64,000 nucleotides of DNA, taken from the NCBI GenBank assembly GCA_019113845.1, contig DXGQ01000009.1:1-64000 (forward strand), read 5' to 3'. Made by a program: the position numbers and the translations under genes. Numbering within the stretch: the first letter of the stretch is position 1; every line of letters starts with the position of its first letter. The notes beneath the pieces are model-generated. The model searched no databases. It worked only from the letters and a program-made list of their open reading frames with translations, and was not told where the DNA came from. The DNA is from Candidatus Anaerobutyricum avicola. Its GTDB lineage: Bacteria; Bacillota; Clostridia; Lachnospirales; Lachnospiraceae. This document shows positions 3,247-45,638 of the stretch, in pieces.

Positions 3247-4389
3247 TTATTTTACACCCATCCATCCGGAGATAACCATCATCTGTACTTCTGAGGTTCC
3301 CTCATAGATTTCAGTGATCTTGGCGTCACGCATCATTCTCTCAATCGGATAATCCTTTGTATATCCGTAGCCGCCGTAAAGCTGTAAGCAGCGGGTCGTC
3401 ACATCCATGGCATTTCTGGCTGCCACCAGTTTTGCCATAGCTGCTTTGTGAGAAAATGGCTCATGATCGTCTTTCGCGCATGCAGCCTGATAAACAAGGA
3501 GTTTGGCTGCCTCTGTGTTGGCGCGCATCTCGGCCATCTCGAACTGTGTGTTCTGGAACTGGGAGATTCTGCGGCCAAACTGTTTTCTTTCCGTGATATA
3601 TTTTGTGGTCTCCTCGAGAGCGCCCTCTGCGATACCAAGAGCCTGAGCGGCAATACCAACACGTCCGCCGTCCAGAGTCATCATGGCATACTTAAATCCT
3701 TTACCCAGCTCGCCTACCAGATTCTCCTTCGGCACGATGCAGTCTTCAAAAATCAGTTCGCAGGTGGAGGAAGCGCGGATTCCCAGCTTATCCTCCTGCT
3801 TGCCGATGCTGAATCCCGGATATCCTTTTTCAACGATAAAAGCGGAGATTCCTTTGGTTCCCTGTGACTTATCTGTCATTGCCAGCACGAAAAATACGTC
3901 GGCTGCGCCGGCATTGGTGATAAAAATCTTGGAGCCGTTTAATACCCAGTGATCGCCGGCATCCACAGCAACCGTCTGCTGACCGGAAGCATCGGTACCC
4001 GCGTTAGGCTCAGTGAGCGCAAATGCGCCGATCCACTCGCCGGAGCATAACTTCGGCAGATATTTCTTTTTCTGCTCTTCTGTACCGAACTGGTAGATCG
4101 GCGTACAGCAAAGGGAAGTATGCGCTGATAAAATAACACCGGTGGATGCACAGTATTTACTGATTTCCTCCACGGTCTGGATATAAGCCAGAGTGTCCAT
4201 TCCTGAACCGCCGTACTCTTCCGGGAAAGGAATTCCCATCAGACCCATCTCGGCCATCATCTTTACATTTTTCATCGGAAATTCTTCCGTGCGGTCGATC
4301 TCTGCTGCCAGCGGTTTTACTTCATTTACCGCAAACTCGTGTACCATCTGCAGAATATCCTGATGCTCTTCATCCTGTCTGAAATTCAT
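3247..4389 (-). CDS. Acyl-CoA dehydrogenase (butyryl-CoA dehydrogenase type)
   Basis: A 380-residue FAD enzyme of full family length. It has the N-terminal helical domain, the FAD-binding ALTEPNAGTDAS block (residues about 128-139), and the C-terminal IYEGTSEVQ motif whose Glu363 is the expected catalytic base. In clostridia such enzymes reduce crotonyl-CoA to butyryl-CoA with electrons from an Etf. Its place between etfA and larA suggests that electrons from lactate oxidation pass through the neighbouring Etf to this dehydrogenase, although the cell probably has a second copy in its central butyrate operon. A 422-bp gap with its own promoter-like site separates it from etfA, so it may be expressed separately. 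The substrate is inferred from context. Confidence 0.9.
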   Translation of the reverse strand: MNFRQDEEHQDILQMVHEFAVNEVKPLAAEIDRTEEFPMKNVKMMAEMGLMGIPFPEEYGGSGMDTLAYIQTVEEISKYCASTGVILSAHTSLCCTPIYQFGTEEQKKKYLPKLCSGEWIGAFALTEPNAGTDASGQQTVAVDAGDHWVLNGSKIFITNAGAADVFFVLAMTDKSQGTKGISAFIVEKGYPGFSIGKQEDKLGIRASSTCELIFEDCIVPKENLVGELGKGFKYAMMTLDGGRVGIAAQALGIAEGALEETTKYITERKQFGRRISQFQNTQFEMAEMRANTEAAKLLVYQAACAKDDHEPFSHKAAMAKLVAARNAMDVTTRCLQLYGGYGYTKDYPIERMMRDAKITEIYEGTSEVQMMVISGWMGVK

Positions 4390-4514
4390 CTAAAATTCCT
4401 CCTGTTCTTATCCAGGCCCACGCCCTGCAGCCTCAACCATTTTGCTGCCGGGGCATCTGCCTGACCGATCTTTTTTACGTTTTTGTTTTGCATAAACGGC
4501 ATTGTATTGTTTGA

Positions 4515-6689: not shown

Positions 6690-8102
6690 TTACAGACGGT
6701 AACATACCTTGCCAGGATTCAGGATCATCTTAGGATCAAATACTCTCTTGATTCCTTCCATGATCTCCATGTTTCTCTCGCCCACGGATTCCACGAGATA
6801 CTTCACCTTGCCCATGCCGATGCCGTGCTCTCCGGAAACCAGTCCGCCGCAAGCTGTTGCTTCTTTATAAATAATGTCGAAGAATTTATCCACTCTCTTC
6901 TTGAATTCTTCCTCCGTAAGATCGTTGGAGCACTGATAAATATGAAGATTTCCGTCTCCTGCATGACCGAAGGATTTGATCTCCAGACCACATTCCTCAC
7001 CGGTTTTATTGACAAATGCCAGATATCCTGCAATCTTATTTACCGGCACAACTACGTCACACTCATCCAGAAGCTTCGTCTCTTCCATGATGGCTTCCAG
7101 GAAGGAGGAACGTGCTGCCCATGCGTCTTTGATCTTGCTGGAAGTGTCCGCCACGAGAACATCCATGGCTCCGGCTTCCAGAACAAGCTCAGCCGCTTCC
7201 TCGATCAGGGCATCCACCTCATCCTCGCTCTTTCCGTCAAGAGTTACCAGCAGATACGCGCCGATCTGTGTTCCTTCCAGTTCCTGTGGGAAAACGGATT
7301 TGCCGATGTAACGCTCGGATGCGAGAACGATTTCTCTTTCCATAAACTCAATGGCCTGCGGATCCATATGCGCCATCTTGAATTTTGGTACGGTGGACAG
7401 CGCTGTCTCCAGATCCTCAAAAGGAATGATCAGGGAAGCGACTACCTTCGGCGCCGGAATGATCTTCAAAGTAAGTTCTGTGATGATTCCAAGAGTTCCC
7501 TCGGAGCCGATCATCAGGTTCAGCAGGGAATATCCGGAAGAAGTCTTTGATACCGTTGCGCCCAGATGTGTGATCTCACCGGTAGGAAGAACAACCGTCA
7601 TCGCACGCACATAGTCACGGGTCGCGCCGTATTTTACAGCACGCATTCCTCCGGCGTTGGTCGCTACATTTCCACCAAGACAGGCAAACTTTTCGCCCGG
7701 ATCCGGCGGATACATCATTCCTCTGGAAAGACAGTCTTCTGCAAGATCGTTTAAGAGCACGCCTGCCTCTACCTCTACCACAAAGTTCTCCATATCATAG
7801 GATTTGATCTTGTTCATTTTGGAGATATCCATGAGAACGCCGCCAAATACAGGCACAGCGCCTCCGGCAAGTCCGGTTCCCGCTCCTCTTGGAGTCACAG
7901 GGATATTGTTGTCATAGCAAATCTTCATGATAGCCGCCACTTCTTCTGTGGACCGCGGCTGTACTGCCAGATCCGGCATATGTGTGCCGTAGATCGGCAT
8001 CTCGTCTTTTGCGTAGTCCGGATTGATATCCTCTCCCAGAAAAACATTGCTGGAAACCTTTTTGATCTCTTCGATAATCTCCGGTGTCAGCTTATTGTAC
8101 AT
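6690..8102 (-). CDS. lctD: FAD-linked lactate dehydrogenase, Etf-dependent (GlcD/LctD family)
   Basis: A 470-residue flavoenzyme of the glycolate oxidase/D-lactate dehydrogenase group. The N-terminal FAD_binding_4 (PCMH) domain shows PRGAGTGLAGGAVP and GGNVATNAGGMRAVKYG, and the C-terminal oxidase domain shows SFGHAGDGNLH and SGEHGIGMGKVKYL. It oxidises lactate to pyruvate and passes electrons to EtfAB. The ATG at 8102 (MYNKLTPE) follows GGGAGG at 8-nt spacing; an upstream start at 8207 would overlap the permease gene. Which lactate isomer it uses cannot be told from sequence, but the family is mostly D-specific and the racemase next door would supply it. Confidence 0.93.
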   Translation of the reverse strand: MYNKLTPEIIEEIKKVSSNVFLGEDINPDYAKDEMPIYGTHMPDLAVQPRSTEEVAAIMKICYDNNIPVTPRGAGTGLAGGAVPVFGGVLMDISKMNKIKSYDMENFVVEVEAGVLLNDLAEDCLSRGMMYPPDPGEKFACLGGNVATNAGGMRAVKYGATRDYVRAMTVVLPTGEITHLGATVSKTSSGYSLLNLMIGSEGTLGIITELTLKIIPAPKVVASLIIPFEDLETALSTVPKFKMAHMDPQAIEFMEREIVLASERYIGKSVFPQELEGTQIGAYLLVTLDGKSEDEVDALIEEAAELVLEAGAMDVLVADTSSKIKDAWAARSSFLEAIMEETKLLDECDVVVPVNKIAGYLAFVNKTGEECGLEIKSFGHAGDGNLHIYQCSNDLTEEEFKKRVDKFFDIIYKEATACGGLVSGEHGIGMGKVKYLVESVGERNMEIMEGIKRVFDPKMILNPGKVCYRL

Positions 8103-8163
8103 GTTTCTACCTCCCTTATTTTCATTCTGCAAAATGCAGTTGCATGTTTTTTGCTGCATATTT

Positions 8164-9708
8164 TTATAATCCCATGGCCGATCCCGCGAAGCAGATGACT
8201 CCGGCAATCAGCACATAGATGATAAAATACTTAAATACGGACCGTAAGATCTGGCTTTCCGAACCGACAGCGTTGATCGCGCCTGCTCCAATGGCGATAC
8301 ACTGCGGGCAGATCATCTTTCCGATTCCTGCTCCCATGACATTGGCTGCTGCCATCCAGGATGGATTGAGTCCCAGTGAGATTGCTGTCTGACTCTGCAG
8401 TCCTCCGAAAAGTACACAGGTGGATGTTCCTGAACCTGTGACGAACGCTCCCAGCGCTCCGATAAACGGAGAGATAAACGGATAGAACGGTCCGGCGACA
8501 ATAACCAGTACATTTGCTATGTCGGAAATCATTCCGCTGTATCCCATGATTTTGGCCGTCGCCATCACGCTGCAGATGGTAAGAATGGTCTTCCAGTATT
8601 TTTTCAGCGTATCAAGAAGGACTCCCAGCATATCTCCCACTGTCGCCTTCTGAATCAGTCCGCCGATCACTGCCGCGATAAAGATCATGACGCCCGGCGT
8701 ATTGATCCAGCTGAATGTCAATGTACTTCCGCCCTCTCCCGCGTAAAACACCGCACTGGTTTTAATGTCCGCGATCAGATTATGGATTGGCGGACAAAGT
8801 GTGGAGGTAAACATCAGCAGAAAAAATATCAAAATAAATGGACTCCATGCCTTTACGCCCTCGGCCACGGTAAATCCGGTTCCCCGGTCTTCCTCTGTCA
8901 GAGTGATCGCATACTCCTCATCCGGTTCTTTATTAAAGAAGCGGGATGCGGCGATCATACAGATCAGAGAGATGATCGAACCGATGATATTCGGCAGCTC
9001 GCAGCCAATCAGCTGCGCGGAAATAAACCATGGTACCGTAAAGGAAAGAGCGGAAATCAATACCATAGGGAATACTCCCTTCAGTGCTTTCAGTCCTTTT
9101 CCCACAATACATACCATAAAGAATGGAGATAAAAATGTGAGAATGCACTGAATCACAGCTACATCTCCGGCCAGCGGCAGAGCGTCAAGTCCGGTGACAG
9201 ACGCCAGCGTCACTGTCGGAACTCCGACAGAACCGAAGGCTGTCGGTGTGGAATTCACCACGAGACAGGCGATAACTGCCCGCATCGGGTCCAGGCCGAT
9301 ACCTGCCAGCATGGAGGCCGGAATCGCTACCGCCGTTCCAAAGCCTGCCATACCTTCCATGAAGTTTCCGAATCCCCATCCGATGATCAGAAGAAGGATT
9401 CTCTCGTCCATGGAGACACCGGCCAGCATCTTTTTGATCAGATCCATGGCGCCCGTCTTCAGTGTCAGATTATAAGTAAAAAGAGCCGCCACGATTACCA
9501 GACAGATTGGCCACAGGGCGTTGAGTACACCCTCCAGTCCTGCCGTCAGTGTGTAAGTAAGATTCAGTTTCCAGTAAGTCATTGCCAGAATGACTGTAAG
9601 GACAAGGGCCGCAACACAGGCCTTATGTCCCGCGATCTTCAGAACACTCAGAGCAATGATCAGCCAGAGTATTGGAAGTATCGCCAGCAAAAATTTTAAA
9701 AACAACAA
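8164..9708 (-). CDS. lctP: L-lactate permease family transporter
   Basis: About 514 residues with 12 or more hydrophobic segments, typical of the LctP/LldP/GlcA family that imports lactate or glycolate with protons. Family signatures include GFGNFMEGMAGFGTAVAIPA around residues 113-132 and the C-terminal FVTGSGTSTCVLFGGLQ. The start is a TTG (9708, or the next TTG at 9705) preceded by GGGAGGG at 7-8 nt; no ATG fits. It is the first gene of the lactate cluster, with the promoter and operators about 40-150 bp upstream. Confidence 0.93.
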   Translation of the reverse strand: MLFLKFLLAILPILWLIIALSVLKIAGHKACVAALVLTVILAMTYWKLNLTYTLTAGLEGVLNALWPICLVIVAALFTYNLTLKTGAMDLIKKMLAGVSMDERILLLIIGWGFGNFMEGMAGFGTAVAIPASMLAGIGLDPMRAVIACLVVNSTPTAFGSVGVPTVTLASVTGLDALPLAGDVAVIQCILTFLSPFFMVCIVGKGLKALKGVFPMVLISALSFTVPWFISAQLIGCELPNIIGSIISLICMIAASRFFNKEPDEEYAITLTEEDRGTGFTVAEGVKAWSPFILIFFLLMFTSTLCPPIHNLIADIKTSAVFYAGEGGSTLTFSWINTPGVMIFIAAVIGGLIQKATVGDMLGVLLDTLKKYWKTILTICSVMATAKIMGYSGMISDIANVLVIVAGPFYPFISPFIGALGAFVTGSGTSTCVLFGGLQSQTAISLGLNPSWMAAANVMGAGIGKMICPQCIAIGAGAINAVGSESQILRSVFKYFIIYVLIAGVICFAGSAMGL

Positions 9709-9725
9709 TTATTTTCCCTCCCTTT

Positions 9726-9740
9726 AATGGGTCACCCAAT
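9726..9740 (-). promoter_or_regulatory. Operator-like palindrome 1 (downstream of lct start site)
   Basis: The minus strand reads ATTGGGTGACCCATT, a near-perfect palindrome centred at 9733, about 5-20 nt after the predicted transcription start. It follows the ATTGG-N5-CCAAT scheme known for LldR sites of lactate operons, which supports binding by the GntR regulator encoded in the cluster. Confidence 0.65.
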
Positions 9741-9752
9741 ATTTATGGTTTT

Positions 9753-9780
9753 ATTATACCACTTCTCCTTTTTTATGCAA
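9753..9780 (-). promoter_or_regulatory. Promoter of the lactate operon
   Basis: On the minus strand TTGCAT (9780-9775), a 16-bp spacer and TATAAT (9758-9753), predicting a start near 9746. It lies between two matching palindromes. The 9709-10249 stretch otherwise holds AT-rich sequence, a pair of direct repeats and a terminator hairpin, and no gene. Confidence 0.7.
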
Positions 9781-9843
9781 TACCCTTTATTTTTTTCAGC
9801 ATTTTTACAGATTTTTGGGCATATTTTTTAGTATTAATTCATA

Positions 9844-9860
9844 TATTGGGTTGTCCAATA
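9844..9860 (-). promoter_or_regulatory. Operator-like palindrome 2 (upstream of lct promoter)
   Basis: TATTGGGTTGTCCAATA has perfect TATTGG/CCAATA arms centred at 9852, roughly 100 bp upstream of the predicted start and 119 bp from palindrome 1. The paired arrangement around a promoter resembles the O1/O2 design of E. coli lldPRD. Confidence 0.65.
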
Positions 9861-10024
9861 TGAGTTTCAATCACATTTTTTATCCCACAATTCTTAAAGA
9901 AAAACAATTATTTACTCTTCATTCTAAAAATCACGTTTTTCACCCCGATTTTTTTGCCTTTCTATGTTTTTGCAAATTTTAACGATATTTTTTTGTCTTT
10001 CCTTTCCTCTCATTGTTTATTTTC

Positions 10025-10102
10025 TTTTTCTCATTGTTTTATTCAGGAGATATTTTTTCAGATTCTTTTCTCATTGTTTCACTCGGGAGATGTTTTTTCA
10101 GA
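10025..10102. repeat. Two imperfect 38-bp direct repeats, 40-bp period
   Basis: Copy 1 (10025-10062) and copy 2 (10065-10102) share TTTTCTCATTGTTT, then AYTCRGGAGATRTTTTTTCAGA with only a few differences. A partial third copy (CTCATTGTTTA) occurs near 10012. They lie in a non-coding AT-rich gap; function unknown. Confidence 0.6.
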
Positions 10103-10105
10103 CAA

Positions 10106-10140
10106 AAATTGCGGGGATACAAATCATTGCCCCGCAATTT
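10106..10140 (-). terminator. Terminator downstream of the EamA transporter gene
   Basis: A perfect 11-bp inverted repeat AAATTGCGGGG/CCCCGCAATTT with a 13-nt loop. On the minus strand the stem ends in a short T run, about 110 nt after the stop at 10250. The symmetric A/T ends could let it act in both directions. Confidence 0.65.
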
Positions 10141-10249
10141 CATAAAATCAGATATGTATTTATAGAAACAGACACATATTCAGATTATCAATATCACCAT
10201 ATTGTGCCTGCCGATACGCCATATTGACTTTTCATTGGCATTCAGCGTA

Positions 10250-10672
10250 CTATATTGTCAGCAGCAATGTACCCGCCACAATCATGACCAGTCCCAACAT
10301 TCCTTTTCTGGTCAGTTTCTCATGAAAAACAATATAGGAAAATGCAATGGTAACTACGATGCTCAGCTTATCCACCGGAACTACCACGCTGGCCGGTCCG
10401 GTCTGAAGCGCACGATAATAGCAAAGCCAGGACGCACCAGTGGCAAGTCCTGACAACACGAGAAATACCAGCGTCCGGGCAGAAATCTCCGGGAGACCCG
10501 TCTGGCTTCTCACAATGAAAACCATCACCCAGGAAAATAACAGCACCACCACTGTCCTTACGGCTGTCGCCACATTAGAATCAATATTTTTAATTCCACA
10601 TTTGGCAAGAATCGCTGTCAGACCTGCAAAAAAGGCGGAATCAAAAGCAAAGAGAAGCCACATGTTCTTCAT
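10250..10672 (-). CDS. EamA-family (DMT) membrane transporter, single-domain
   Basis: About 140 residues with four or five predicted membrane helices, equal to one EamA half. Family traits are the start MWLLFAFDSAFFAGLTAILAKCGI, the GLATGASWLCYYRALQTG segment before a helix, and PVDKLSIVVTIAFSYIVFHEKLTRK near the end. Ordinary EamA exporters have two such repeats; one-repeat forms are thought to pair up. The substrate cannot be told. The ATG at 10672 sits 5 nt after GGGAG; an ATG at 10684 is also open. It has its own terminator and no clear functional link to its neighbours. Confidence 0.8.
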   Translation of the reverse strand: MKNMWLLFAFDSAFFAGLTAILAKCGIKNIDSNVATAVRTVVVLLFSWVMVFIVRSQTGLPEISARTLVFLVLSGLATGASWLCYYRALQTGPASVVVPVDKLSIVVTIAFSYIVFHEKLTRKGMLGLVMIVAGTLLLTI

Positions 10673-10754
10673 CTCCTCTCCCATTCATGTGCTTTCTTTC
10701 TATTGTATATTTACACCCGTATGTCTGTTCTCGTTGAAGTCTTCCGTCGGGATT

Positions 10755-12077
10755 TTATCTTTTTATGACCACTATACCGCGGGTCAGTCCCGCCCCGAAC
10801 AGTCTCTCGTATTGATCCAGGCAGGCCAGCGGCAGCCGCACCTTCACTGCGGACGACAGTCTGTGAAAGGCTCTGCCGTGACATTGTCTCAGCTGTGTCC
10901 CTGAAAATGTCAGCGTTCTCAGTCGGATATCACCGGCAAAAGCATCCGCTCCCAGGAGACGCAGCTGCGTCCCGAAATGCACGTCCCGGAGGCGCAGACA
11001 TCCCGCCAGTCCTTTCTCTTCCACCACACGCAGCGAATCCGGCAAGGTGAGCTTTTCCATGCGCTGACATTCCTGAAAAGCGAACGCTCCAATACACTCG
11101 ATCCGATAATAATAATCGCCCAGCTTCACGTTTTCAGGCAGGCTGATATGTATTTTTTCCGGTTCCCTCCAGAGAAGACAGCGAACACTTCCGTTTTTTA
11201 CAGACGGATTCATGATCTGGAACAGTCCATTTCCCGCTGCGATCCTTTTCCCCGCAGGATTGGCAAATGTCCAGCAGGCATGTAACGTAAGACTTTCTGT
11301 CACCCTCTCCGGATGCCTGCTCCAACGCAGTTCATATCCTCTTTTCTTCCGTTCCGGGTACAGAAGGAGATCTCCATAATGATACTTCTTTTCCTGCACC
11401 AGTTCTTCGCCATCATAAAAGGCGACCGTATATTCATTATATATGTAAGAAAATACTGCGGAGATATCCACATTTTCCGTTATTCTTTCCGTCTGTGCAC
11501 TCCAGCCCGCAAATGCATAGTGATACACGGCGTCCGCCGCCTTCACCGGCGCTTCCGGCGGATGTGCCGGACTGCCGTACTCCACCTGCTCTTCCTTCAG
11601 CAGGTTGCCGTCTTCATGAAGAAAACGCACGGAAAACACCCTTCTTTTCCGGCCAAATACCGCTTTGACATTCGTATCCTTCTCAATGTGGTCAAGCGGA
11701 CGATTCCACCCGAGAAATGGATATTCATACTCCGCGTCTCCCTCTTTTTCCGGAAAGACTTCCGCCTTCGCCGCCTGTCCATAGGACACGCTCTCCATGC
11801 CGAGAAGCCTGTCATTTTCATGAAAATACATGACCAGATATTTCTTCGGGATCTCTTTGTAGATCGCTTTTACTACCAGATTCTTCTCCACCCGGGAAAA
11901 ATCCGTATCCCAACCGGCGAACACAACCTCATGATGCGCCGTCTCACCTTTCTTAGCCGAAATCTCCGGCGGCTGCGCGCCGTCCCCTTCCGCCACAAAG
12001 GCTGTCTTTAACACTGTATTCTCTTCGTCCTGAAAGACGACGATATATTTTTTACCGGTTTTCTTTTTTTCTGCCAT
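10755..12077 (-). CDS. Protein with four Listeria-type beta repeats and a leucine-rich (BspA-like) C-terminus
   Basis: A 440-residue protein of unknown function. Residues about 10-270 contain four repeats of about 65 residues with the pattern Y-x-V-x-F-x-(D/H)-E-(N/D) ... Y-G ... F-x-G-W ... V-x-A-x-F, resembling InlB B-repeats (List_Bact_rpt). Residues about 330-430 resemble LRR_5/BspA repeats (IGAFAFQECQRMEKLTLPDS). Such modules are usual in surface proteins, yet the protein starts MAEKKKTGKKYIVVFQDEE with no signal peptide, no membrane helix and no sorting signal. It may be cytoplasmic or leave by an unusual route. It lies 9 nt downstream of the YbaK gene and probably shares its transcript. 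Confidence 0.75.
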   Translation of the reverse strand: MAEKKKTGKKYIVVFQDEENTVLKTAFVAEGDGAQPPEISAKKGETAHHEVVFAGWDTDFSRVEKNLVVKAIYKEIPKKYLVMYFHENDRLLGMESVSYGQAAKAEVFPEKEGDAEYEYPFLGWNRPLDHIEKDTNVKAVFGRKRRVFSVRFLHEDGNLLKEEQVEYGSPAHPPEAPVKAADAVYHYAFAGWSAQTERITENVDISAVFSYIYNEYTVAFYDGEELVQEKKYHYGDLLLYPERKKRGYELRWSRHPERVTESLTLHACWTFANPAGKRIAAGNGLFQIMNPSVKNGSVRCLLWREPEKIHISLPENVKLGDYYYRIECIGAFAFQECQRMEKLTLPDSLRVVEEKGLAGCLRLRDVHFGTQLRLLGADAFAGDIRLRTLTFSGTQLRQCHGRAFHRLSSAVKVRLPLACLDQYERLFGAGLTRGIVVIKR

Positions 12078-40083: not shown

Positions 40084-40320
40084 CCATTCGTTCTCATACA
40101 GTTCCTCCCGACTCGACCCTCACTCGGACTACTAACGTTTTCTGATCAGCAGGGAGAAACCGCAAAGCGGTTTCAGCTACGCTTTACAGGATTAAAAAGA
40201 TCTGCTCCTTCGTGCAAGCACGGGAGCCATCCCTTTTCCAATCCTGCTCCCTGCCTTCCACAAGTCTTAGATAGTCCTTCCTCACAGCTCGCGGTCGGAA
40301 ACTGTATGCATTACGAATGG
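40084..40320. repeat. 237-bp self-complementary element, MITE-like or structured RNA
   Basis: The ends form an imperfect inverted repeat: CCATTCGT (40084-40091) with ACGAATGG (40313-40320), CATACAGTT with AACTGTATG, then CCGA/TCGG, GGACT/AGTCC and GCAGGGAG (40149-40156) with CTCCCTGC (40247-40254). Inside are nested hairpins GAAACCGC-AAA-GCGGTTTC, CAGGATT/AATCCTG and GCTCC..CGTGC-AA-GCACG..GGAGC. No reading frame and no clear target-site duplication. The right end supplies the stop codon of a truncated lipoprotein gene, suggesting insertion. Confidence 0.65.
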
Positions 40321-40562
40321 CAAATTAAATCGGCAAACATAGTCAAACTCTGTTCAAACTGATACACTTCTCCGTTGAATTTAATAGATTGTCCCTTATA
40401 AGCTTCAGGAGAATTGAAAAATTCAGTAAATTGTGCTTCTTCCACATACTGTTTTTCTTCATTGATTTCTGTATTATTGGTTTCCTCTGCGGAATTGCCT
40501 CCGCAGGCCGTCAGTGATGATATCATAACAGCACATAAAATATACGATATTAGTTTTTTCAT
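40311..40562 (-). CDS. Lipoprotein, C-terminally truncated
   Basis: An 83-residue frame starting MKKLISYILCAVMISSLTAC, a clear lipoprotein signal with lipobox LTAC and Cys20, followed by an Asn/Glu-rich linker and a short folded-looking start (FNSPEAYKGQSIKFNGEVYQF). It ends abruptly in DLICHS, where the last codons and stop lie inside the 237-bp inverted-repeat element. The original protein was therefore probably longer. No family can be given. It is 15 nt downstream of the membrane coiled-coil gene and on the same strand. Confidence 0.6.
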   Translation of the reverse strand: MKKLISYILCAVMISSLTACGGNSAEETNNTEINEEKQYVEEAQFTEFFNSPEAYKGQSIKFNGEVYQFEQSLTMFADLICHS

Positions 40563-40577
40563 AGTAATTCACTCTTT

Positions 40578-41744
40578 TTAATAATTTCTTTGACATATTT
40601 GCCTGATATTCAACGCTTCTAAATTATAAGACATATATCTCTGCTCTTTTAAAGCCTGCCTTGAATACTCTATTTTTTCTTGACTTTGGTCAATCATTCT
40701 ATTATTTTGGGCAATGATTTTATGATTACTGTCAAGTATTTCTTGTTGTTTTTTATATGTATTTGCTATTAAACTATTTGCTTCTTCAATTTCCTCTAAG
40801 ATATATTTCTGATTTTGAATTATATTATCTAATTTTGTTTCAATTCTCCCTAATCGACTTTCTAAATCATACTTATTTATTGCTTCTTTCATTGAATCAA
40901 CATTACCATTTTGAAAATATTTATATAAGATACACACAATTTCCAATTTAAAATAATCAACTGGAATTATATTTAAAGATTTTATCTCTGCTAAAATACT
41001 TTCTGCTTTTTTTCGCTGTTTTTGTAAAATCTGTACTTTTCTTTCAATTTCTATTTTTTTAATATTTTCTTCATCCAGTCGTTTTTTGTCTCTTTTATAA
41101 AATTCCTGCTCTTTTCTTTGTTCATTGAGTAAATTTCTTTCATATTGCTTTTTACGATCTGAATATGATATTTTTTCAACAATTGCACCTAATACACAAA
41201 CTAGCAAACACACTATTAATAATATAATACATATTTCAATAATAATCCAAACTCCATACTGAAAAAAATCAGTAATTAGTTCAATACCAAAATCTAAATG
41301 TTTATATGATAATTCTCCTATAGGTAAATTCCATCCTAGTTCATTTACAACATAACGAACAGGCCAAGACAAATAAAAAAATATTTTAGGTAAAAAATTA
41401 GCCCAAACATACTTAGGATCTCCATATCCTACACCGCCAAAAATATCATTTAAGAAACTTAATGTGATTAATATTATTTGTAATATACAAAGTAATAACA
41501 AAATTACTAATCCATATCCTGTAACTACAAAATTTGAAACAACTCCTGAAAAGAATCCAGTAAAAGTTCCAAATATTAAACTTCCTTTTTCTGGTTTCTC
41601 AAATTTATTTTGCTTATATCTTTTTTTTATGCCTAATTTCCCCATCTGCTGTTGTAAGTTATAAATACCTTTGTCGGTATTAATTACCGTATACTGTAAT
41701 GTCGCTGTTGCACTTAACAAGTTTTTTATCTCTTCTCTCCGCAT
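40578..41744 (-). CDS. Membrane protein with long C-terminal coiled coil, unknown function
   Basis: 388 residues. A basic, hydrophilic N-terminus (about 1-55) is followed by two or three hydrophobic stretches (about 60-110, perhaps 120-140, and 165-195) and then about 190 residues of strongly charged, heptad-like sequence (NLLNEQRKEQEFYKRDKKRLDEE onwards). No enzyme motif is visible. Codon use is very AT-rich, unlike the flanking pyr genes. It lies 36 nt after the ankyrin-like gene and probably belongs to the same transcript as the RiPP genes; a role in export, anchoring or immunity would be a guess. Confidence 0.7.
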   Translation of the reverse strand: MRREEIKNLLSATATLQYTVINTDKGIYNLQQQMGKLGIKKRYKQNKFEKPEKGSLIFGTFTGFFSGVVSNFVVTGYGLVILLLLCILQIILITLSFLNDIFGGVGYGDPKYVWANFLPKIFFYLSWPVRYVVNELGWNLPIGELSYKHLDFGIELITDFFQYGVWIIIEICIILLIVCLLVCVLGAIVEKISYSDRKKQYERNLLNEQRKEQEFYKRDKKRLDEENIKKIEIERKVQILQKQRKKAESILAEIKSLNIIPVDYFKLEIVCILYKYFQNGNVDSMKEAINKYDLESRLGRIETKLDNIIQNQKYILEEIEEANSLIANTYKKQQEILDSNHKIIAQNNRMIDQSQEKIEYSRQALKEQRYMSYNLEALNIRQICQRNY

Positions 41745-41780
41745 ATTTCTTCACCTTAATCTACATTTTAGATATTATAA

Positions 41781-42599
41781 TTATCTCTTCTTCCCTTCTC
41801 TTTTTACCTCTTGTGCTACTTCCCGCAATATTCTTCCACCTTCTTTATCCCAAAATTTTTCATTTTCTACAAATTCAGTCCATTTCTCTTCCCCTAATTT
41901 CTTTTTTAATCGTTCTTGTGCTGCAATTCTATCTTCATAATCTCTCATTAAAAAATGATTTTCTTCTTCTATTGAGTTACGAAACAAAAAACCTACTTTT
42001 TTTAATGTAGGCTTTGGTATTTCTCTGTATTTATCAGGATCTAGAGAAATCGTCTTCCTGCTTATAAAAGGATTATTTTTTATAAATTGTGTCACTTCAC
42101 TTCTAGGATATTTTTTACATTCGGCATCAAAATAATTTCTTGGTCTCCCATTTTCCAATAATATTTTTATCGGCAAAATTTCTTCATTTTTAAACCAATA
42201 TTCATCAAAATTACCATTATAATGAAATCCATTTTGAATTAATAATTCCATTACATCATAATTTTTTAATTCTGCTGCTCGATCTGTTAACCTTTTACAG
42301 TACGACTCATTATCAATGCATTCAAAGGACATAAAATATCCATAGAAACCCTGAAAACCATGTTTAATTAAACTTTGCATCACATTTATATCATCTAATA
42401 TAAAATATAATGTTCTCTCAAAAGAAACTCTATGTATTTTTTCCAATGATGCTCCTTTATCAAACAAACTTTCCATTTCATCAACATTTTTTTCAATTAT
42501 TGCTCTTAAAAGCCTATTGACAATTGGTCTCGGTTCTCCATATCCTTTTTTATCCCAACCAAACTGCCATGTATAATTTATTTCTTCGTTAATATCCAT
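41781..42599 (-). CDS. Ankyrin-like repeat protein, unknown function
   Basis: 272 residues. Helical repeats such as LLRAIIEKNVDEMESLFDKGASL, NVMQSLIKHGF, NYDVMELLIQNGF and PIKILLENGRP resemble divergent ankyrin repeats (about residues 25-155). The C-terminal third is charged and lysine/glutamate-rich. There is no signal peptide or membrane helix. It starts 22 nt after the radical SAM gene and is therefore probably co-transcribed with the RiPP operon. Ankyrin-like proteins occur as toxin or immunity partners and as scaffolds, but nothing here decides. Confidence 0.65.
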   Translation of the reverse strand: MDINEEINYTWQFGWDKKGYGEPRPIVNRLLRAIIEKNVDEMESLFDKGASLEKIHRVSFERTLYFILDDINVMQSLIKHGFQGFYGYFMSFECIDNESYCKRLTDRAAELKNYDVMELLIQNGFHYNGNFDEYWFKNEEILPIKILLENGRPRNYFDAECKKYPRSEVTQFIKNNPFISRKTISLDPDKYREIPKPTLKKVGFLFRNSIEEENHFLMRDYEDRIAAQERLKKKLGEEKWTEFVENEKFWDKEGGRILREVAQEVKREGKKR

Positions 42600-42620
42600 A
42601 TACTATTCACATCCTCTCTT

Positions 42621-43238
42621 TTATCTTGGGGTTTCATCAAGTAACATTCTTTTCATTTCATCATCTACAAATTTTCGTCTTAATTCAGCCACTCTACAGA
42701 AAAATGGATCTACTTTTTCTTCATCATCATATGCTAATTTAAAATTAGCAACACAATGTTCACAAAAACGAATATTATCACACGAATGACATTTATAGTT
42801 TAGAGATGCTTTTTTATCTACAAATTCCTTTTGTAGATAGTTCCAACCTTCATCAAAATTTCCTTTTTTTAAATCATATTTACGATATGAAGCTCTAACA
42901 CATCCTTGCATCTTGTAATCTGATGTAATAAAAACATGTTGATTAGCAATAGAACATGGATATAAATACCCTTCATCAAATCTTTCAATTGTTCTCTGCG
43001 GCCTTATCTTAATTTCGCCTGTCAAAATATCTTTAGCAACATTTTTCCAAAAATCCCTTCTTCCTTCATCTTTTATATCAAAATCAAAAGCCTCTTCAGG
43101 TGTTAAACGAAAGGACATTGGAGCAATACAACCATCGCTCATTGGATGTACATCTAAAATAACCACCATTGGAACCCCCAATTCCTTTCCAAACTGTCTC
43201 ACTTTATATAAATCATCAATATTTTGTTTCATTGCCAC
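42621..43238 (-). CDS. Radical SAM/SPASM peptide maturase, C-terminal part (frame-shifted)
   Basis: 205 residues that continue the preceding frame after a one-base slip. It contains the end of the barrel (FGKELGVPMVVILDVHPMSDG) and a SPASM-like auxiliary Fe-S domain with cysteines in YPCSIANQ, MQGCVRA, KCHSCDNIRFCEHC and FFCRV. No Shine-Dalgarno site precedes its GTG or ATG, so it is unlikely to be translated alone. If the frame is restored, residues ELKFVAMKQNIDD follow smoothly from the upstream part, giving one protein of about 376 residues. Confidence 0.8.
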   Translation of the reverse strand: MAMKQNIDDLYKVRQFGKELGVPMVVILDVHPMSDGCIAPMSFRLTPEEAFDFDIKDEGRRDFWKNVAKDILTGEIKIRPQRTIERFDEGYLYPCSIANQHVFITSDYKMQGCVRASYRKYDLKKGNFDEGWNYLQKEFVDKKASLNYKCHSCDNIRFCEHCVANFKLAYDDEEKVDPFFCRVAELRRKFVDDEMKRMLLDETPR

Positions 43239-43255
43239 AAATTTTAATTCATATT

Positions 43256-43750
43256 TTATATTATTTTTTGTAACATTTCAAGAGATTTCATAAATTGTCG
43301 ATAACTTCCTTTTACACCGGTTACCTCTTCATAAGATTTTTCAGAATAACCATACATAGATGTACTTATTATCTCAACTGGATATTCTTTGAACAATTCA
43401 ATATGTCTTTCATTCAATAAAGTAATATTTGACAATAATGATATTAAAACCCCTTTCTTTTTGGCATAAACATACATTTCCTCAAAATCAGGTCTTGTAA
43501 ATATTTCTCCACCTGTAAAATAACAATCTAATAATCCTCTTTCTATTAAAATATCAAATATCTTTTTGAAATTATCTACAGAAAAATCTTGATGATTTCT
43601 GTCTGACTTTGCATAGCAATGTACACAATTCAAATTACACTTTGCTGTCAATTCAAAGCCCGCAGTAAAAGGAGCTCGTATTCCTTCAAAATTGTTATCG
43701 ATAAAATCATTCATCAATTGACTATGTACACAATATCTATATGATGGCAT
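43256..43750 (-). CDS. Radical SAM/SPASM peptide maturase, N-terminal part
   Basis: 164 residues with the radical SAM cluster motif CNLNCVHC (Cys38, Cys42, Cys45), the FTGGEIFTRPDF (GGE) SAM-binding segment near residue 79, and ISLLSNITLL further on. It stops just after MLQKII because a run of six A (43264-43269, T on the plus strand) appears one base short; a seventh A or a -1 slip on AAA would continue as LQKNNIKYELKF into the next frame. With the adjacent PqqD-like protein and a Cys-rich peptide this is a RiPP-modifying enzyme. The chemistry (thioether, cyclophane or other) cannot be told. Confidence 0.85.
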   Translation of the reverse strand: MPSYRYCVHSQLMNDFIDNNFEGIRAPFTAGFELTAKCNLNCVHCYAKSDRNHQDFSVDNFKKIFDILIERGLLDCYFTGGEIFTRPDFEEMYVYAKKKGVLISLLSNITLLNERHIELFKEYPVEIISTSMYGYSEKSYEEVTGVKGSYRQFMKSLEMLQKII

Positions 43751-43763
43751 TATATTCTCCTAC

Positions 43764-44030
43764 TTATTCAAAAAGTAACTTGTAATCAATTAACTGCAAA
43801 ATATAATTTTTTACTGCCGTTTCTTCTACCGAACCCGATTGAAGATTATACAATTTACATATTTTTACTATCAGTTCTGTTACATTATTTGTATTTTCTG
43901 CCATTTTCCATATAGCAACAGCCATATCATTTAAATAAATAGGATTATTATTAGCATTATTCTTTCTTATAGGCATTAATATTGCTTTCCCATATATTTC
44001 CCTTAAAATAAAATCTTTATTTCTCTTCAC
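43764..44030 (-). CDS. PqqD-like RiPP recognition protein
   Basis: 88 residues with the PqqD (RRE) pattern: an N-terminal beta region (FILREIYGKAILMPIRK), YLNDMAVAIWKMAENTNNVTELIVKICKLY and a final helix NYILQLIDYKLLFE. Such proteins bind the leader of a precursor peptide and present it to the partner radical SAM enzyme. It lies between the precursor gene and the maturase gene, 13 nt before the latter, the classical order for such systems. Confidence 0.82.
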   Translation of the reverse strand: MKRNKDFILREIYGKAILMPIRKNNANNNPIYLNDMAVAIWKMAENTNNVTELIVKICKLYNLQSGSVEETAVKNYILQLIDYKLLFE

Positions 44031-44046
44031 TATTTATCTCCCGTAT

Positions 44047-44082
44047 AAAGGGCTGCTACACAAAAAATATAACAGCCCCTTT
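44047..44082 (-). terminator. Hairpin between precursor and RRE genes (partial terminator)
   Basis: On the minus strand AAAGGGGCTG pairs with CAGCCCTTT (one bulge) around an AT-rich loop. The tail (ATACGGG) is poor in T, so it may only partly end transcription or protect the 3' end of a short precursor mRNA. Such hairpins often keep precursor levels above those of modifying enzymes. Confidence 0.5.
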
Positions 44083-44096
44083 GTCACTAAGTACTA

Positions 44097-44213
44097 TTAT
44101 TTCCCCTGATAACAACATGACTTAAAAGTACAATGATATGGGTTTTCTGGGCCATATGCTGCTACTCTGTCACTTTTACCTAAAATAATCATTTGAGGAA
44201 ATTTAAACTTCAT
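44097..44213 (-). CDS. Candidate RiPP precursor peptide, 38 residues, Cys-rich tail
   Basis: A short frame with an excellent site (AAGGAG, 8 nt before the ATG) and the right place, immediately upstream of the PqqD-like and radical SAM genes. The leader-like part begins MKFKFPQMIILGKSD and the C-terminus is YGPENPYHCTFKSCCYQGK, with one Cys, three residues, then Cys-Cys, plus aromatic residues and a basic end. There is no double-glycine site. I know of no named family with this core, so product class and activity are open. It has its own promoter under apparent double-operator control. Confidence 0.75.
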   Translation of the reverse strand: MKFKFPQMIILGKSDRVAAYGPENPYHCTFKSCCYQGK

Positions 44214-44313
44214 CTTTATCACTCCTTCCATAAAAAATTGAAATATTCTTTACAAGAGTAAAGATTATTATTTCCTATACAGTTTTCCAATATCACTATG
44301 ATTTTGTCTATTT

Positions 44314-44332
44314 TGACATCTACTAAATGTCA
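44314..44332. promoter_or_regulatory. Operator 1 of the RiPP locus (TGACA-N9-TGTCA)
   Basis: TGACATCTACTAAATGTCA, a palindrome with 6-bp perfect arms, lying at about +5 to +23 of the predicted RiPP transcript. Its design is the same as that of operator 2, 53 bp away. Confidence 0.65.
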
Positions 44333-44343
44333 TTACACTTCGC

Positions 44344-44372
44344 ATTTTATCATAAACTATCAATAATGACAA
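44344..44372 (-). promoter_or_regulatory. Promoter of the RiPP operon
   Basis: On the minus strand TTGTCA (44372-44367), a 17-bp spacer and TAAAAT (44349-44344) give a start near 44337. The -35 hexamer is inside operator 2 and operator 1 follows the start, so bound repressor would block it. The leader to the precursor ATG is about 120 nt. Confidence 0.65.
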
Positions 44373-44386
44373 TCACTGAATGTCAT
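44366..44386. promoter_or_regulatory. Operator 2 of the RiPP locus (TGACA-N9-TGTCA)
   Basis: ATGACA-N9-TGTCAT with perfect 6-bp arms. The centre part ATCACTGAA resembles TCTACTAAA of operator 1. It covers the -35 of the RiPP promoter and lies 45 bp before the XRE regulator gene, so it may also control that gene. Confidence 0.65.
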
Positions 44387-44430
44387 TTTTTTAGATTTTC
44401 ATTTGATTTTTTAAATATAAAGGAGTTCAT

Positions 44431-44682
44431 ATGTACAAAAATAAATCAACTGATGGAAGCAATAATATTTGTGGAAAAAAATTATATGTATTAAGAAAAC
44501 AGTTATCCCCTAAAGTATCTCAGCGTGCTTTCGCAGACAAATTACAACTTAAAGGAATTGATTTAGACAAAAATGCTATTCAGCGCATTGAATGTGGAAA
44601 ACGATTTGTGACTGATATCGAATTAAAGGCATTTGCACAGATTTTGAATACTACAACTGATGAATTGTTAAGCGACAATTAA
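44431..44682 (+). CDS. XRE-family helix-turn-helix regulator
   Basis: 83 residues, nearly all one Cro/CI-type domain: LYVLRKQLSPKVSQRAFADKLQL, then NAIQRIECGKRFVTDIELKAFAQIL and TTDELLSD. AAAGGAG lies 5 nt before the ATG. It is divergent from the RiPP operon and next to two matching palindromes, so it is the obvious candidate for their ligand, most likely a repressor that also controls itself. No sensor domain is present; release could depend on a peptide, a partner protein or protein level. Confidence 0.85.
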   Translation: MYKNKSTDGSNNICGKKLYVLRKQLSPKVSQRAFADKLQLKGIDLDKNAIQRIECGKRFVTDIELKAFAQILNTTTDELLSDN

Positions 44683-44839
44683 TAAGTTACTGTCCTATCC
44701 CTTTTTAGCCAAATAAAAAAGGACTGTTATATGAATCTTTCTCCAACTCTCTGAATTTTGATTAGAATTTCGTAGAAGCATCACAATACAGTCCTTATAT
44801 TTATATTTTTTTCGTATAATTGTATTTTTACATATTATT

Positions 44840-45112
44840 TTACAATCCGAAATACTCATACCATCTGGCGATAATGTCCGCCCGGTTAGCACAGATATAT
44901 TTCTGAATTCTATTTAAATCTTTTTGAGGAATATTTCCTCTTCTTTCCAACTCGATGGAATCTCTTTTTATCCAGAATTTAGCTGCATTATTTGATGGTT
45001 TTCCTTTTGTCACATGTACCGGCTCATTGCCTTCTTCTGAATAAAAATAAAATGTATACCCCATAAAATCTAACAGCGCTTTAGGCAATTTCTCCACCTT
45101 CCTCTCTGGCAA
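44840..45112 (-). CDS. DUF4160 family protein
   Basis: 90 residues with the DUF4160 pattern: LLDFMGYTFYFYSEEGNEPVHVTKG, then AAKFWIKRDSIELERRG and a C-terminal helical stretch ending in IIARWYEYFGL. These small proteins are usually paired with a DUF2442-like protein and are suspected toxin-antitoxin or regulatory partners, without a proven role. It overlaps the preceding gene by 32 nt, which implies a co-translated pair. It ends convergent with the XRE gene. Confidence 0.72.
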   Translation of the reverse strand: MPERKVEKLPKALLDFMGYTFYFYSEEGNEPVHVTKGKPSNNAAKFWIKRDSIELERRGNIPQKDLNRIQKYICANRADIIARWYEYFGL

Positions 45113-45347
45113 TCTCCCAGATTAAAAAGCTGTTATTTCTGAGATATTTTTCCATTTGCATCATTTCGTCTTCTGAGAAACCATAAGATTTATAAATCAT
45201 ATTTTCCGGGAGACGTCCTTCCGCAAAATCAAATCCCTGTTCGTTGGGACGTTCAAAACGAAATGTAATGGAATCAAATCCATCTCGTTCTTCAATATCC
45301 GAAAATATCAATGTGATATTGTCAATCTTACTGTAATAATTTTTCAT
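45081..45347 (-). CDS. Small protein paired with the DUF4160 gene
   Basis: 88 residues (MKNYYSKIDNITLIFSDIEE ... FLIWEIAREEGGEIA), acidic, with no membrane helix or known motif. The frame is open upstream to 45731, but that part overlaps a terminator hairpin and GC-rich repeats and does not look like protein, so I place the start at the ATG at 45347, with a weak AGGTG site. By position it may take the place of the DUF2442 partner usual next to DUF4160; sequence alone does not prove this. Confidence 0.6.
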   Translation of the reverse strand: MKNYYSKIDNITLIFSDIEERDGFDSITFRFERPNEQGFDFAEGRLPENMIYKSYGFSEDEMMQMEKYLRNNSFLIWEIAREEGGEIA

Positions 45348-45638
45348 AAATAACACCTGCCTCTCTACCTTTTCTTTGACAGCAATGTTTCTCTTATCCA
45401 TTACCTTAATGGAATAGTCTTTATCTTTCTCCATCATTTTATCATGCCGGGGGCTGACGTAAAAGATAAAAATATATTCTTTACTCCGGCACATCTTTAC
45501 TCCGGCATAAAGTATGCACCGCCGGATTCCGCTCACACCGACGCAGCGGTCGCCTGCGTATGCCATTGCCTGACCCTTGTTAAAGCATTCTGCCTGTACC
45601 AACGCAGCGGCTGTCCTTGGGGTGTATCCGTATCTCGC

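Follow-up and report, generated by a model that had tools for sequence, protein, structure and literature searches.

What is made by a locus that places a short peptide gene ahead of a PqqD-like gene and a radical SAM coding stretch, and is the copy found here still able to make it? The locus lies in a 64,000-nucleotide stretch of Candidatus Anaerobutyricum avicola DNA, the whole of which we call the window. The original prediction described it as a compact RiPP locus in which a 38-residue peptide comes first, followed by the two proteins needed to modify it. Indeed, the peptide and the two modification proteins were found in that order on one strand, at the positions given in the prediction (42621-44213), and the reading as a radical SAM RiPP locus is supported. 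The precursor, the PqqD-like RRE and the radical SAM/SPASM stretch all stood up to analysis, but the maturase proved to be split between frames and is not one gene, a break that the prediction had overlooked. Judging from sequence comparison, we consider it fairly probable that the locus belongs to an RRE-guided radical SAM RiPP cassette that has spread horizontally and whose core is crosslinked, most likely through Cys thioethers. The parts of the cassette are as follows.

44097 to 44213, minus strand: precursor peptide of 38 residues, full sequence MKFKFPQMIILGKSDRVAAYGPENPYHCTFKSCCYQGK, with an F-x-F-P-Q-M leader and the core AAYGPENPYHCTFKSCCYQGK
44047 to 44081, minus strand: hairpin between the precursor and RRE genes
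43764 to 44030, minus strand: stand-alone PqqD-like RRE of 88 residues (Pfam PF05402)
43256 to 43750, minus strand: radical SAM half of the maturase (Pfam Radical_SAM, 77.4 bits; CNLNCVHC), 71-84% identical to intact enzymes
42621 to 43238, minus strand: maturase, SPASM half; lies in another frame (open from about 43274) and shares 73-81% identity with the C-terminal part of intact enzymes

A scan of genome contigs with the radical SAM half returned nine loci, five at 24-41% identity and four that were close (71-84%). The close ones are all intact homologues.

L003: Blautia sp. An249
L004: Blautia caecimuris
L005: an uncultured Clostridia MAG
L006: a Coriobacteriales MAG

In each of these the maturase is intact, at 372 or 373 residues, with a PqqD-like gene just 5' and the same short peptide farther 5'. 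Precursor, RRE and maturase occur together in 5/5 loci across two phyla, two of the loci being in one genus (Blautia). The expectation of a conserved small peptide beside homologues was borne out, a near-identical peptide being found 5' of the PqqD-like/maturase gene pair in 4/4 close relatives (L003-L006). To place this similarity on a scale, we compared all coding-strand ORFs of 25-90 residues lying no more than 1.2 kb upstream of the PqqD-like gene at the five loci, which gave 458 pairs. The ten precursor pairs ranked at the top with scores of 169-208, against 47 for the next pair and a median of 17. The window ORF is preceded by a Shine-Dalgarno-like GGAAGGAG. The precursor is a real gene, and its recurrence exceeds chance.

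Within the precursor, the two ends have diverged differently. Compared with L003, L004, L005 and L006, the window precursor shows 9, 8, 11 and 16 synonymous codon differences in its final 20 codons, with 0, 0, 2 and 1 residue changes, respectively; the 16 codons before these carry 6, 5, 7 and 7 residue changes. Across the five precursors, 17/20 residues are invariant at the C-terminal end versus 8/16 just before it. On this comparison the core is under purifying selection, and no other region of the cassette is as constrained as the tail. The cysteines occupy positions 28, 33 and 34, so that the core reads C-x4-C-C and the C-x3-CC of the original prediction needs correcting. His27, Cys28, Cys33 and Cys34 are invariant at the five loci, Tyr and Lys positions in the core are largely so, and there is no Trp. 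The window precursor has no Pfam match. Between the precursor and RRE genes there is an inverted repeat with its own sequence in each of the five loci. It folds better than shuffles in all of them (z -4.1, -5.5, -4.9, -6.4 and -2.4, for stretches hand-picked around the visible repeat); in the window it was not called by the terminator scan, and it may set the precursor:enzyme ratio.

The window RRE scores 23.9 bits against PF05402 (cut-off 23.4), and the same model is above cut-off in both relatives scanned (L003 and L006). Identity between the window RRE and those of the relatives is 39-53%. Its nearest NCBIfam model is a lasso PqqD model, below that model's cut-off. When the RRE profile was compared with the PDB, designed helical proteins came out best (E 7e-6), matches that we took for chance, and two lasso RREs came next (E 0.004-0.005). 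The leader pattern F-x-[FY]-P-Q-M is kept across the five precursors; short as it is, it resembles the YxxPxL motif that lasso leaders carry (PMC6856326). Upstream of the L003 cassette, a fragment at 4246-4494 repeats approximately the first 30-37 residues of the PqqD-like protein, which is a sign of local duplication.

Since the maturase coding stretch of the window runs over two frames, this copy is either broken or carries a sequence error, and unless the break is such an error the copy would be inactive. It is a substantial possibility, against which we lean slightly, that the cassette in this genome is a remnant, that is, a decaying insert without function. The two frames point that way, as does the adjoining lipoprotein, which is without the C-terminal part present in the related genome G001. 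Against this, the precursor and the RRE are intact, and both maturase halves keep their cluster cysteines, all seven predicted SPASM cysteines being present in the SPASM half (profile positions 159-370). Moreover, the non-synonymous divergence of the two halves is similar against each of the four relatives (0.104 and 0.100 against L003); synonymous-rate estimates gave proportions above 1 in some pairs, hence the non-synonymous values alone were used. The retained cysteines and the similar divergence argue that the break is recent, or that it is an error in the A-rich run. The radical SAM CX3CX2C and the seven SPASM cysteines are invariant in 11/11 aligned relatives, seven of which are just 22-31% identical to L003. 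The generic SPASM model does not reach its cut-off (22.7 vs 27 bits).

Does the cassette belong to a family that already has a name? No named-family match had been foreseen, and precursor, RRE and maturase all fell below NCBIfam cut-offs among the matches listed (for the maturase, the best 25 of 59-69); nor is the cassette family named in NCBIfam or Pfam among these matches. We therefore rejected the named radical SAM peptide families, none of whose curated cut-offs was reached among the matches listed. Sactipeptides of the SkfB and AlbA type share a Cys-bearing core with the cassette, and the radical SAM half matches AlbA at E 9.5e-26 and SkfB at E 6.6e-14. However, the maturase lies far below the curated cut-offs (AlbA 90/850 bits, SkfB 44-53/300, StsB 43-74/625), the RRE of the cassette is a separate protein, and a thioether is here only predicted. 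RumMC was not among the matches listed for the maturase (best 25 of 59-69). The SCIFF/PapB ranthipeptide models TIGR03974 and NF047865 were not among the best 25 rows for the maturase or its halves, and appeared, below cut-off, only for a second radical SAM protein of L005 and L006. Among the matches listed, the nearest NCBIfam model both for the SPASM half (E 1.1e-6) and for the C-terminal part of the relatives' enzymes is that of the CcpM/CLI_3235-type Cys-rich peptide maturases (TIGR04068), to which the cassette scores 20-28 bits versus a cut-off of 500. The PQQ system (PqqA-PqqD-PqqE) likewise combines a separate PqqD-like RRE, a SPASM radical SAM enzyme and a short precursor, but there are no PqqB/C/F/G genes among the neighbours scanned and the PQQ equivalogs are below cut-off (PqqD 12.9/46 bits, PqqE 56-74/381 bits). 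The Glu-x3-Tyr setting of PQQ is absent from the cassette core.

Searches with the core strings and topic terms found no earlier description in the literature covered; an existing survey of streptococcal and human-microbiome radical SAM peptides may contain one. The pairing of a discrete RRE with an adjacent radical SAM enzyme is already known as a general kind, of which the cassette is a further member. The RRE-Finder survey (PMC7470986) counts about 300 such pairs in which the discrete RRE is lasso-like, in loci where, as here, a stand-alone PqqD/lasso-type RRE adjoins the enzyme; its accessible text gives no precursor with the sequence of the window cassette.

From these comparisons we infer a route for leader binding, crosslink type, promoter control, leader removal and every chemical step between them. 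The stand-alone PqqD-like RRE would bind the short leader (F-x-x-P-x-M) and hand the C-terminal core to the radical SAM/SPASM enzyme. Using S-adenosylmethionine, the enzyme would then make a substrate radical and introduce one or more crosslinks into AAYGPENPYHCTFKSCCYQGK. The crosslinks would most likely be thioethers from Cys28, Cys33 and/or Cys34, with about 2 Da lost per bond. Thioethers are preferred because the three cysteines are invariant, which makes a sactipeptide-type bond from Cys sulfur to an alpha-carbon possible. An unlinked protease would remove the leader, and a divergent HTH protein would repress the cassette promoter.

The same cassette could instead serve an enzyme that makes carbon-carbon or carbon-oxygen links of the streptide or PQQ type on Tyr, Phe, His or Lys, leaving the cysteines free or as disulfides, an alternative that we regard as unlikely. 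A structure model of the L003 enzyme (mean pLDDT 83.7) scores about equally well against the peptide-modifying SPASM/twitch enzymes SkfB, PqqE and SuiB, against 5why (whose title names a thioether-bond enzyme), and against BlsE, MoaA and an anaerobic sulfatase maturase. The presence of PqqE and SuiB among the best of these would suit carbon-carbon or carbon-oxygen links, as would the largely invariant Tyr and Lys positions of the core, and PqqE too works with a separate PqqD (PMC8326336). The lack of Trp and the invariance of all three cysteines speak against such links, as does SkfB, the best maturase match by sequence and by fold E-value, albeit by small margins. Predicted fold matches also include the non-RiPP enzymes MoaA, BlsE and viperin. 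Since similar fold scores extend across thioether, carbon-carbon and non-RiPP enzymes, the fold leaves the chemistry undecided. An anti-phage viperin was considered and rejected: although pVip profiles match the radical SAM domain (E 4e-15), such a role does not fit the SPASM cysteines or the presence of a precursor.

It is distinctly improbable that the cassette yields a peptide that binds metal, or one cut down to a small redox cofactor like PQQ or mycofactocin. Such a product would explain the near-constant core, and the invariant His27, Cys28, Cys33 and Cys34 are in keeping with it; however, no cofactor-type oxidase or peptidase is common to the five loci among the neighbours scanned, and a zinc-finger reading of the core was rejected, as the resemblance is not significant (E 0.27). 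A lasso peptide locus is hardly credible and was rejected: the RRE and leader resemble lasso parts, but the leader is without the penultimate Thr, and among the neighbours scanned at the five loci (a subset of the ORFs) there is no lasso cyclase or leader peptidase, a radical SAM enzyme being found instead.

The radical SAM cassette with predicted Cys thioethers, which we prefer, is rare. We sought the maturase half or a four-enzyme profile in overlapping sets of 24 genus, 397 family and 392 order genomes, and in further overlapping sets of 64 genomes of the L003 genus, 247 of the L006 order and 394 of the L005 order. Throughout these sets the sole orthologue-level scores came from the five known loci, the four intact ones at 801-820 bits; the next best among the 392 order genomes reached 172-213 bits. 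The precursor is present in 1/220 family genomes, namely its own. Plasmids, phages and viral contigs held no cassette relatives at the limits used. About 6 kb downstream of the cassette, An249 (L003) carries a gene for a conjugative coupling protein. Given its rarity, its scatter over Bacillota and (in one MAG) Actinomycetota, and the coupling-protein gene near the An249 copy, horizontal spread of the cassette is likely.

In the window, the insert that carries the cassette sits between pyrD and pyrE, behind a divergent HTH gene.

40588 to 44306, no strand assigned: cargo stretch with the cassette and two accessory genes, replaced by unrelated genes in G001
44314 to 44332, minus strand: palindrome TGACATTTAGTAGATGTCA, candidate operator, present in G001 with two substitutions
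44367 to 44385, minus strand: palindrome TGACATTCAGTGATTGTCA, candidate operator, identical in G001, overlapping the -35 of a promoter-like site
44431 to 44682, plus strand: divergent HTH protein, candidate repressor (HTH_3 18.8 bits, cut-off 23)

The cargo stretch has a GC content of 28% versus 50% and 51% on its flanks. At 18/24 pyrE loci, from 23 of the 24 genus genomes, pyrD and pyrE lie side by side; the other six comprise three with an insertion (the window's own genome, G001 and G023), two that end too soon and one second pyrE copy. A blastn comparison of the window with L049 of G001 gave flanking matches at 40311-40587 and 44307-45477, and none in between. DNA identity to G001 is 80% over the start of the lipoprotein gene (40311-40587) and 90% around the divergent HTH gene, where it extends as far as window position 44307. 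G001 fills this pyrD-pyrE slot, behind the same HTH gene, with an alternative cargo (L049 3184-5419) that encodes two small proteins and a lipoprotein with WG repeats. Window positions 40311-40562, at the insert's left edge, form an 83-residue small lipoprotein ORF whose G001 relative has 139 residues (L049 2719-3138), the C-terminal part being the one that is missing.

The HTH protein is below Pfam and NCBIfam cut-offs and is kept together with its upstream region in G001 at 90% DNA identity. A promoter-like site for the precursor lies at 44372-44344, where the palindrome at 44367-44385 overlaps its -35. Promoter-like sites occur no more often than in shuffles (35 vs 30.4), and the palindrome search pattern was derived from both sites themselves, so that its chance expectation is no independent test. 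With sub-threshold HTH scores, a self-derived pattern and promoter-like sites of shuffle frequency, it is from position and conservation that we infer repression of the precursor promoter by the HTH protein, and a slot behind the HTH gene that accepts different cargo. That the HTH gene and palindromes are kept while the cargo behind them is exchanged suggests a way in which such cassettes come under the control of a new host's elements.

The two accessory genes of the cargo stretch lie downstream of the maturase.

41781 to 42599, minus strand: accessory gene for a protein with weak ankyrin similarity (Ank_4 E 0.008, below cut-off)
40578 to 41744, minus strand: membrane/coiled-coil protein, accessory gene of uncertain link to the cassette, weakly similar to L004 7162-8142

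The downstream membrane protein that had been proposed as possibly involved with the product does exist, but the gene directly downstream is the ankyrin-like one. The claim that no transporter or protease is adjacent held for the eight window proteins scanned at 40.3-44.7 kb, none of which was above cut-off for a transporter or protease family. In L006, the gene directly 3' of the maturase encodes a homologue of the ankyrin-like protein (29% identity across 254 residues, E 9e-36). The protein was rejected as a marker, being found in 1/220 family genomes, namely its own, and its structure model (mean pLDDT 61) is too poor for use. The membrane protein is similar to L004 7162-8142 at E 2e-4 over 85 residues. 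Downstream of the maturase, L004 has a membrane/coiled-coil protein with a subtilase farther on; in L005 a small membrane protein comes first and Sel1 proteins after it. Directly downstream in L003, at 7149-10712, is a TPR-CHAT (caspase-like protease) protein, which might cut off the leader or have nothing to do with the cassette. A second radical SAM protein, encoded at L005 1561-2622 and L006 8049-9086 (44% identical to each other), might add another modification. Its gene adjoins the cassette only in these two loci (G421 and G422), found no match in G419 and G420 and just a weak 29% match elsewhere in G000, and was rejected as a fixed partner. As no accessory gene is constant across the loci, the minimal unit comprises three genes.

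Competing bacteriocins are expected to have variable cores. The near-invariant core seen here suggests one fixed partner, a signal or factor, and not an arms-race bacteriocin. It is the same nearly letter for letter in Blautia and in a Coriobacteriales bacterium, with widely diverged synonymous codons and RRE, which points to one conserved target. A bolder reading, speculative and rather unlikely to hold in full, is that the product is a single, fixed peptide, crosslinked by radical SAM chemistry, which has a conserved partner and acts as a dedicated signal or as an intracellular factor. The cassette would move as plug-in cargo between Bacillota and Actinomycetota of the gut, and would here be slotted behind a resident repressor-operator platform that in a close relative carries different cargo. 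The radical SAM peptides of gut bacteria gain a compact precursor-RRE-maturase set that is easy to test and has an unusually constant core, and intact copies of the cassette exist in four other genomes (L003-L006).

Among four more distant relatives, two had no candidate precursor under the filter used, and two carry, beside the enzyme, a short Cys peptide of their own that differs from the cassette's and has a leader of the form Y-x-K-P-x-[FI] (L060 7357-7491 and L061 5773-5901). The L060 candidate precursor has 44 residues and is rich in Cys and Trp. At 9991-11528, L060 also contains a second radical SAM gene, accompanied by a separate Cys-bearing ORF of 40 residues.
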